Below are positions 32,714-37,728 of a stretch of 64,000 bases of DNA, piece after piece (position 1 is the stretch's first letter; each line of letters begins with the position of its first letter). The notes beneath the pieces are model-generated. The model worked only from the letters and a program-made list of their open reading frames with translations, ran no database searches and had not been told where the DNA came from. Made by a program: the position numbers and the translations under genes. The DNA comes from Lasiosphaeria ovina. Lineage: Eukaryota > Ascomycota > Sordariomycetes > Sordariales > Lasiosphaeriaceae. The DNA lies in the NCBI GenBank assembly GCA_033439765.1, contig JAULSN010000010.1, forward strand, positions 1,426,001-1,490,000, read 5' to 3'.

Positions 32714-33877
32714 CTAGGTAGCCACAATAGAATCTTCGTCATCTTCCCAGTCTGATGATGCGCATGCCTCTTCCACAGGAGTAGGAGGGGGGTTTCCGAA
32801 TACCTCCCGCTCAAGCTCAAAGACCAGATCCTCTCTCTCCTTGCTCTTGATCTGGCGAGTCTCGACGAGAGACCCCTCTGTGTTCGCACTCCTGAGCGGC
32901 GCCGGGTCGGAGAGCATCTGCATTTCAGGTCAGTCCTCCTGGAATTGTGAGATACGGTGCGTGGTTGCAAGAAAAGGCGAGCCTCACGTTGATGCCAAAC
33001 AGCCGCCGGATTTTGAAGATAAGCCCGCTGGCACAAACTACAACCTCGTCGTCCTCTGGGTTCTGTTTTGAAATTCCTGTCAGCGTGCGGTTTTATCATA
33101 CATCAGGTGCATTTACCAGCTTGTGGGGGCCCTCACCTTGGGAGAAAACTCCCTGCAGCCGCCAGCATCTGCTGCATCGGACCAACCACCGCCGACGCCC
33201 AGGTTCAAGACTCCATGGGCATCTACTGTGAGTCCAACCGAGAAGGCGCGGCTGCCTGACTCCCACACATTGAGCAGGCACTTCTTGGTGCTGTAGGTAT
33301 CCCTGATAATAGCCAGACCGTGCCTCTTGATATCCTCGCCTCTCGGGCTAGCCATGAGAGCATCGATGTTGTCGTACACCCAGCGTGAGAATGGGGACTC
33401 GTGGAGGAAGCTGCGGGAGCTGATGGGTTTTACAGTTATAAGGACCGCCCCGGCGTTCTCGCTGCCCTGGTATTTGTAGAACGCCTTACCCGTTGCGGCG
33501 CCCTCGGGCAATCTGCCGGAGTTTTCGCGGTAAGCAGCGATGTACGCACCTGTTGGTCCAACTTCAAGGAGAGAGAGAGAGCACACGCACCTGGCCATTA
33601 CCTCAGCAGTGATATCAGACTCGGTGACTGACGAGGAGTACAAGGGCGACCACCCCTCATCGAGGGTGGAGTCGTTCGCCAACAGCTCTTCCTGGGGCGG
33701 CTTGAAGCCCTTGGCCTTGAGGTCTTCGCTGTCGTCCAGCTGGGCAATGGGCTGCCACTTGGCGTTGCTGTCCCAGTAGCCAACCGAGCCAGGCCGCATC
33801 TCAGTCGTAGACGGAGGTCTGTAGAGGCAGCGGCCGTAGCCGAACTTGGCCATCAGTTTCGCATACGTCGCGTCCAT
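32714..33877 (-). CDS. Gasdermin-like pore-forming cell-death protein
   Basis: Probable fungal gasdermin homologue. Such proteins stay inactive until a protease removes a C-terminal piece, then insert in membranes and kill the cell. Three exons in phase: 33877-33137, 33062-32988 and 32917-32714, about 339 residues. The N-terminal part has the pattern I associate with fungal gasdermin-like proteins: FGYGRCLYRPPS, then PGSVGYWDSNAKW. The centre has AGAVLITV, then a block spaced like the gasdermin strand-helix-strand region (HESPFSRWV, then RHGLAIIRDTYSTKKC). After about residue 270 comes a tail that is acidic near its end (SSDWEDDEDSIVAT), a candidate removable inhibitory segment. A 39-base intron-like insert at 33601-33563 adds 13 residues. 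The gene diverges from a CHAT-protease gene 392 bases away. Family assignment rests on pattern and context, not a search. Confidence 0.68.
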
Positions 33878-34269
33878 TATGTCACGTGATCTGCGGCTGA
33901 ATCTTGTAGTTAAAGAGAGCGAGGAGGAGGAGAAAGTGGTTGCGGAGGGGGGGGGCAGTGCTGGGTCAGTAGGTGCAAGTCTGTCTAATTAATAATCCAA
34001 TCTAATACTAGAGAGGCTGAGCTGCGCGATTTGCGCGATCTCAGGCAGGCAATCATCCCCGCTTTTAGTTCCATCAGGCCACCGCCGATATGTTTTCCTA
34101 TCCATGATTGGGCGACACAGGCTCCACCTCAGCTCAGTGCCTCACCTGATTGAACGACATGCGTACGTGAGCTGAGCTGCGATCAACTAGATCTAGCGAT
34201 GGCTGCCCATGACATGCCCGCACACGCCCCACGCCCCACGCCGACCTCGTTGCGCAGTACTGCCCGTCG
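33878..34269. promoter_or_regulatory. Shared divergent promoter of the gasdermin-like and CHAT genes
   Basis: 392 bases between two divergent start codons, with AT-rich patches near 33985-34005 and a G run near 33949. Such a short shared region suits co-expression of an executioner and its protease. No specific factor site is claimed. A possible upstream ATG at 34199 is in another frame from the CHAT ORF. Confidence 0.5.
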
Positions 34270-37200: not shown

Positions 37201-37728
37201 TACAAAGTCACCACGCTGGGCCACCCCAGGGAGGAGTTCCAAGGCGTGCCGTACCGCAAGCCCGTGGTGCAGGCGCTGCGGACGTGCGAGGTGGCGCATT
37301 TCGCCTGCCACGGCGTCGCCGATCCGCTGGAGCCGCTCCGCAGCAGGCTGCTGCTCTGCGACTGGAAGGGGGGACGCTCGCTGACGGTCGGCTTCCTGAT
37401 GCGCATGGAATTCAAGTCGTGCCGGCTCGTCAACCTCTCGGCCTGCGACATGGCCGTCAACCGGGACCTGCTGCTGCGCGAGGAGGGCCTGCACGTGGCC
37501 GGCGCGTTCCAGATGGCCGGCGTGCCGAACGTGCTGGCTACCATGTGGCCCATCGTGGACGCGGTCGCGCCGCAGGTGTCGAGAGACCTGTATTCGGAGC
37601 TGCTCGGCGGTGGTGATCGGCTACGGTTTACTGACGTTGCTGAATCGTTGCACAAGGCCGTGATGGGTTTGATGACGAGCGGCGAGAGTGTGGCGGTTTG
37701 GGGCCCTTATGTGCACTTTGGTGCCTAA
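34270..37728 (+). CDS. TPR-like protein with C-terminal CHAT (caspase-like) protease domain
   Basis: Single-exon gene, 1152 residues. The last 230 residues form a CHAT domain, a caspase-clan cysteine protease fold. The catalytic pair is visible as His1014 in VAHFACHGVADP and Cys1059 in NLSACDMAV, followed by the usual EEGLHVAGAFQMAGVPNVLATMWPI block. The first 750 residues are helical and Ala/Leu-rich, with degenerate tetratricopeptide-like units (for example YALKTLAGVLATRANSHL), a probable sensor or assembly region. A GAT run encodes seven Asp near residue 150. No signal peptide, so cytosolic. Fungal gasdermin genes are known to sit beside genes for CHAT or subtilisin-like proteases, so the divergent gasdermin-like gene is the likely substrate. 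The frame is clean over 3.4 kb. Confidence 0.85.
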   Translation: METPEEHARTHCARADTLLQRYTKSHSDHVQNEQLSLDALAELDAAASRTNPSELPERITQITALSASIHLERLLRIGLKPDADAAELGLRALLRDQQPASASYCLTLRKLLMILHIRYERTADRQFVLESLDLVGSAIAGVGQDDDDDDDAACLPVLLGACGQALIDLSECANSPSALEMAIDVLRAAADAAQSSNAVGSSEWVLTQQTLAEALRRRFEAMGDERDIAEAQAIFDDDDSNASLSPRETLSCLMARLRVLHSRWRLCPGGASLKTLIMEYSQANQLLLLNDRSPIRPELFQATGAAFNEMFFDPNHKRGVAFASILGGYRAGEELLSTWDKKPADCPGFAPYLFAMGRAWELQFHAYYSPEALGVAYGMFSQCLRLTSPDSSHYALRAAAMIGAQRMKRDLGFAGDKPGDESAIKTLTTVLLGKLPLEAKAKAAVATELGYTALRQHDSTAATAPQKTSSWLDQAIRHFRKAVSFSCTDKLSQVYALKTLAGVLATRANSHLQRDLKELALTDCDDALHVLERLAAACQGIKVNLQERYDTLGDVREVQFSIHGDQRYAENAIEAWEKLYAGKDGVSISRLMTATKASALQQRISGDHGRAARVYRSVVLTFLQVVSPSDTRPEQIWKLRLLGRLSVRALGEALMAGWPAEEVLEVAERCRSVIWNLVLGRKASVADLEARHRALAARFVKARALLARSPKAAAEAAAGDRSWGGLLASNQFHTADEYNAVLAEIRQQPGFEDFLLPGLSAERLLSVSSEGPVVMFVQSNVSSHAVVVSQAGVLAEPLPDFSQKRCEERYRHFNTFLEVRQKDPARAAEVLEDLLHWLWDAAAGPVVSALAKAGICRRDPQPTDSRLPRLWWVSSGWISVFPIHAAGEYNNSKKPKPSEGRRHVFDFFVSSYTPSLGALAYARRTMHRMSSNTVSATNTNRLPEAALVSMRFTPDVQPDLEHAAGEVREAEAILRRGYKVTTLGHPREEFQGVPYRKPVVQALRTCEVAHFACHGVADPLEPLRSRLLLCDWKGGRSLTVGFLMRMEFKSCRLVNLSACDMAVNRDLLLREEGLHVAGAFQMAGVPNVLATMWPIVDAVAPQVSRDLYSELLGGGDRLRFTDVAESLHKAVMGLMTSGESVAVWGPYVHFGA

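Follow-up and report, generated by a model that had tools for sequence, protein, structure and literature searches.

A TPR-CHAT protease gene and a divergently transcribed gasdermin candidate: a probable cell-death module in Lasiosphaeria ovina

Introduction

Do two neighbouring genes of the fungus Lasiosphaeria ovina, transcribed away from each other, encode a dormant protease and the pore-forming protein that it sets free to kill the cell? The genes, one for a CHAT-domain protein of 1152 residues and one for a small protein of 313 residues, lie in a stretch of 64,000 nucleotides (contig JAULSN010000010.1, positions 1,426,001 to 1,490,000; hereafter the window) of a 51.7-Mb, 32-contig genome. 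A first-pass annotation of the window had read them as a gasdermin and CHAT protease pair acting in programmed cell death, and had stated that fungal gasdermin genes often neighbour genes for CHAT or subtilisin-like proteases. The latter has close precedent in three reviews (PMC10197012, PMC10989679, PMC12881547), which, like the other literature here, are cited from excerpts of their text. According to these reviews, some 80% of the gasdermin genes of fungi have a protease gene nearby; 19% lie near a CHAT gene (PMC10197012), the CHAT share of the neighbouring proteases is put at about 17% (PMC10989679), and cysteine proteases including CHAT near fungal gasdermins are likewise put at about 17% (PMC12881547). 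The reviews give Clave et al. 2022 as the source of the gasdermin/CHAT clusters, and in Podospora anserina a TPR-bearing CHAT protease activates the gasdermin of its own two-gene cluster (PMC12881547).

We consider it probable that the pair in L. ovina is a pyroptosis-like two-gene cell-death module of this fungal gasdermin/TPR-CHAT kind. We prefer that reading since pairs arranged in this way have been published and the small protein is built as such a partner would be; most likely the locus adds a further case to the fungal pairs already described.

Results

A protease gene and a four-exon partner share a short intergenic stretch

The two genes are divergent, with outer ends at 32714 and 37728, and both promoters presumably lie within the 392 bases between their start codons. 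This layout, the 1152-codon CHAT frame and its His/Cys pair agree with the first-pass annotation. Its statement that both frames are intact holds for the CHAT gene but not for its partner on the minus strand, whose unspliced reading (33877-32714) is interrupted by stops and which is spliced from four exons. The parts of the two genes, in positions of the window, are as follows.

33878..34269, no strand: intergenic region separating the start codons, 392 bases by position count
34270..37728, plus strand: TPR-CHAT protease gene, a single exon of 1152 codons without interruption
34279..36507, plus strand: TPR-like helical superhelix, residues 4-746, a putative sensor arm (predicted structure)
36766..37722, plus strand: CHAT domain, residues 833-1151, with the dyad H1014 (HFACHG) and C1059 (NLSACD) (Pfam)
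33591..33877, minus strand: exon 1 of the small protein gene, from the start codon at 33877, encoding residues 1-95 plus two bases of codon 96 (splice model, exon match)
33137..33512, minus strand: exon 2, through residue 221 (splice model, exon match)
32988..33062, minus strand: exon 3, residues 222-246, the end of the core (splice model, exon match)
32714..32917, minus strand: exon 4, residues 247-313 and the stop, the acidic tail (splice model, exon match)

The CHAT gene is real. In simulated 64-kb windows (n=30), drawn from a first-order Markov model of the window's own sequence, the longest stop-to-stop frame reached 307 codons against the 1152 found here, so the frame is not a product of chance. 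The encoded protein (126.6 kDa) is 93% identical over its full length to the annotated CHAT protein P0007 of Lasiosphaeria miniovina (Sordariales), 45% identical to a CHAT protein of Acephala macrosclerotiorum (Leotiomycetes) and 41% identical, over 95% of its length, to one of Coniosporium apollinis (Dothideomycetes). CHAT is its sole Pfam domain (PF12770, residues 833-1151, 105.3 bits against a cut-off of 24, E 5.1e-30). The structure model is confident, with a predicted local distance difference test score (pLDDT) of 84.7, and joins a TPR-like superhelix to a protease of Csx29/separase type; H1014 follows the strand 1008-1012 and C1059 the strand 1053-1057, these being two central strands, and a structural search returned Csx29 as the nearest solved structures. 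The long helical region that had been proposed for the protease is thus present in the model, and the structure comparison suggested at the time came out in favour of a CHAT protease. We regard the TPR-CHAT protease as established, with its proteolytic activity predicted from sequence and model.

The small protein gene is real as well. Its introns, for which the annotated L. miniovina protein P0001 served as the scoring reference, are all GT-AG (33590-33513, 78 bases; 33136-33063, 74; 32987-32918, 70), and because intron 1 has no in-frame stop, exons 1 and 2 had resembled one frame of 254 codons. The product consists of a core of 246 residues followed by an acidic tail of 67, with the boundary at intron 3; the stretch from residue 245 has an isoelectric point of 4.06. 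It is identical to P0001 at 299 of 313 positions and to P0002 of Rhypophila sp. PSN 637 at 214 of 313, the tail (30 of 67) being far more diverged from Rhypophila than the core (184 of 246). The eight rows of relatives comprise P0001, P0002 and six short pieces, and were seen only in Sordariales and metagenome pieces. A genome-wide search with P0001, whose first look let two candidates through, found no second copy of the gene at E <= 10 and returned its four exons only.

Evidence for and against a gasdermin partner

Gene context, the lengths of core and tail and a resemblance in parts of the sequence suggest, indirectly, that the small protein may be a gasdermin-type pore former. In our reading, parts of it resemble fungal gasdermins; the fungal-gasdermin-like pattern named in the first-pass annotation was confirmed by no tool used. 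The acidic tail, set off from the core by intron 3 and much less alike than the core between L. ovina and Rhypophila, also speaks for such a protein. A protease gene within 10 kb is a usual, though not universal, trait of fungal gasdermin genes, and here only 392 bases separate the two start codons. A core of 246 and a tail of 67 residues also fit the fungal gasdermin build, in which a core of about 240-260 residues bears a short C-terminal tail if protease-activated, although a fit of lengths is weak evidence. In HET-Q1, for comparison, the cut falls at F238 of 278 residues, and the RCD-1 forms have 257 and 244 residues (PMC10989679, PMC12881547).

Several results count against a gasdermin/CHAT pair. 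The small protein had no significant family match in Pfam, NCBIfam, PADLOC or PHROGs. Neither phmmer searches of PDB sequences with P0001 and its first 61 residues nor profiles of the whole protein, exon 1 and exons 2-3 gave a gasdermin match at E <= 10, returning weak unrelated rows or nothing. Its AlphaFold model, built from an alignment of eight sequences of which six are pieces, is unusable (mean pLDDT 34.5), so that structural searches with it carry no weight. The contig of 119,967 bases that holds the Rhypophila small protein has no CHAT gene among the 27 CHAT rows, and the contigs with the Acephala and Coniosporium CHAT genes (169,078 and 538,582 bases) have no small protein among the 8 rows of its relatives. 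L. ovina itself has 12 CHAT-matching stretches, made up of the window gene and 10 other places, and at the seven of these 10 that were searched, over 10 kb each, no relative of the small protein was found. Both relative searches scored only the roughly 8,000 candidates sharing most words, so that a partner with a diverged sequence or a faulty annotation would escape them.

Both proteins are nearest to those of L. miniovina, the single close relative with both genes. P0001 and P0007 are each found on a contig of 4,222,760 bases, and we infer from the equal size that they share one contig. The first-pass annotation had held that its reading would fail if the pair were conserved in no relative; L. 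miniovina, with both genes, speaks against such a failure, while in Rhypophila the small protein was found without a detected close CHAT gene.

Further searches for relatives of the small protein recovered its own exons only, both in 2,328 frames (the window, seven CHAT-paralogue loci of 10 kb and two overlapping contig-end pieces) and in 4,800 frames from 48 loci (30 of them loci of S8 proteases with 1.5-kb flanks). The best other frames in these two local profile searches had E values of 0.38 and 0.87, and the frame at 0.38 (57153-57560) belongs to an NPP1-like frame and was taken as chance. The gasdermin family PF04598 had no match in the L. ovina genome. Among family rows for the small protein, RepC (E 0.033, one of six members), the Vps8 RING (E 0.19, one of six members) and a phage tape-measure family (E 0.12) were likewise set aside as chance. 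The surprise at this locus is that the partner of the TPR-CHAT protein is recognised by none of the libraries tried.

The protease belongs to a distinct fungal CHAT lineage

The 27 rows of CHAT relatives include the window's own protein, four labelled fungal and 13 labelled actinobacterial. A quick tree of 59 rows was built from these 27 proteins, seven frames of the L. ovina genome and 25 of 79 bacterial loci, with nine protein rows labelled by guess (P0028 and P0032 as fungal, the rest as bacterial); many of its deep branches lack resolution. The window CHAT groups with P0007, P0008 and P0009 (Shimodaira-Hasegawa-like approximate likelihood ratio test, 100) and stands apart from six of the seven other CHAT frames of its own genome (95), a placement that points to a distinct fungal CHAT lineage and not to a recent duplicate. 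The 59-row tree gave no sign of recent transfer from bacteria. One aligned CHAT protein, P0016, has Ser in place of the catalytic Cys and is possibly an inactive protease.

Bacterial kin of the TPR-CHAT protein were followed at the best 79 loci of 217 relatives, all titled Actinomycetota, with a seed alignment that was mostly actinobacterial. No likeness to the small protein was found among the 843 neighbour frames of at least 100 codons at these loci (best E 1.0). In 25 of the 79 actinobacterial loci (L058-L136) one type of neighbour recurs, about 360 residues long and hydrophobic at its start, which is a possible partner of the bacterial CHATs.

The pair lies in ordinary surroundings

Judged by its sequence, the window is ordinary fungal gene ground, and the first-pass impression of many broken neighbours found no support: half of the 20 further frames that were scanned have matches in known families (two P450s, an amidase, SDR, NmrA, a histidine phosphatase, HET and NPP1, with Kre9-like and methyltransferase matches below cut-offs), and introns could account for the interrupted frames. 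None of the genome's 32 listed S8 stretches falls within the window, where the neighbour of the small protein gene is the CHAT protease. As to a subtelomeric position, the contig ends 12.6 kb past the window, and no telomere array was found in the final 10 kb. Neighbouring features are listed below.

37905-38008, plus strand: tRNA gene, probably with an intron, 177 bases beyond the CHAT gene (Rfam 48.2 bits over 104 bases; ARAGORN silent)
38395-39366, minus strand: gene for a Ser/Thr-rich protein, next after the tRNA (Kre9/KNH-like start, E 4.3e-4, below cut-off)
57153-57560, plus strand: part of an NPP1-like frame (necrosis-inducing protein family), closely preceded by a run of glutamine codons (PF05630, E 4.2e-10)
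59278-60789, plus strand: HET-domain (heterokaryon incompatibility) frame, about 21.5 kb from the CHAT gene (PF06985, E 7.3e-27)

The product of 38395-39366 contains a hydrophobic segment as well as a short repeat close to its C terminus.

Discussion

If the pair is a gasdermin/TPR-CHAT module, the TPR-CHAT protein would be a dormant cysteine protease of caspase/separase kind, whose TPR-like superhelix would sense a trigger, directly or via a partner, and so make H1014 and C1059 competent for catalysis. Cleavage of the small protein by the protease would follow near the junction of core and tail, at about residue 246, and set the acidic tail free. The remaining core, presumably a strongly diverged fungal gasdermin, may oligomerise in membranes and kill the fused or infected hyphal compartment. 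The protease half of this interpretation, as first proposed, is well founded in the CHAT domain, the His-Cys dyad and the predicted superhelix; for the other half, no gasdermin sequence match was found.

Published systems resemble the locus to different degrees. The fungal gasdermin and CHAT clusters likewise combine a TPR-CHAT gene with a neighbouring gene whose small product has a gasdermin-like build and ends in a short C-terminal tail, although there the gasdermin is known and here it is a candidate, and the Podospora pair is likened by description only. Csx29, the TPR-CHAT protease of Craspase, which cuts Csx30 in type III-E CRISPR (PMC9729208), and separase share the predicted TPR-like superhelix and CHAT-type protease; sequence identity is only 8-18%, however, the N-terminal arm of the window protein is longer than that of Csx29, and the likeness implies neither a CRISPR nor a cohesin partner. 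HET-Q1 and HET-Q2 of P. anserina offer the idea of a small pore former whose short C-terminal tail is freed by a protease, but there the protease, HET-Q2, is a serine protease of the S8 family and the genes are idiomorphs. At hetB of Aspergillus fumigatus (PMC11138114), likened by description only, a large CHAT protease and a short protein without annotated domain belong to the same locus, there as alternative alleles, here side by side.

The protease may act on a small protein of quite another fold, a lineage-restricted effector or regulator that the cut releases or inactivates. The missing family and PDB matches favour this, as do the narrow range of the relatives and the likeness of the protease to Csx29, whose substrate Csx30 is not described as a gasdermin in the excerpted text of PMC9729208. 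Since the core and tail lengths match known fungal gasdermins, the published neighbour of fungal TPR-CHAT genes is a gasdermin and a failed sequence search says little at such distances, we hold this explanation to be unlikely.

Comparable, rather low odds go to an allorecognition (heterokaryon incompatibility) locus at which the pair, or one member of it, is polymorphic in the species and brings about the death of fused cells when the strains differ; this role could overlie the gasdermin mechanism, and its odds overlap with those of the other readings. Podospora het-Q1/het-Q2 employ a gasdermin and a protease in this way (according to the reviews), and a HET-domain frame lies in the window, but both genes occur together in one genome, unlike the idiomorphs.

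Least probable of all are chance neighbours, the small protein having an unrelated role of its own: the partners undetected in Rhypophila, in the distant CHAT relatives and at the seven searched of the 10 other CHAT places of L. ovina would favour this, whereas the 392-base divergent spacing, the presence of both genes in L. miniovina, the habitual occurrence of such clusters in the reviews and the ease with which diverged partners escape our searches all oppose it.

For the preferred gasdermin/TPR-CHAT module, the stimuli are of particular interest, those of fungal gasdermin pathways being called a major open question (PMC12881547). A gasdermin partner would be a strongly diverged example in which core and tail are cleanly divided, and could help to show what a TPR-CHAT sensor responds to and at which site it cuts. 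If the partner is no gasdermin, which we think improbable, it would be a new CHAT-activated effector, founding a family activated by TPR-CHAT and so far seen in Sordariales and metagenome pieces; in that case two or more unrelated proteins with killing or signalling roles would depend on CHAT proteases in fungi, much as bacterial TPR-CHATs are reported to serve gasdermin and Csx30.
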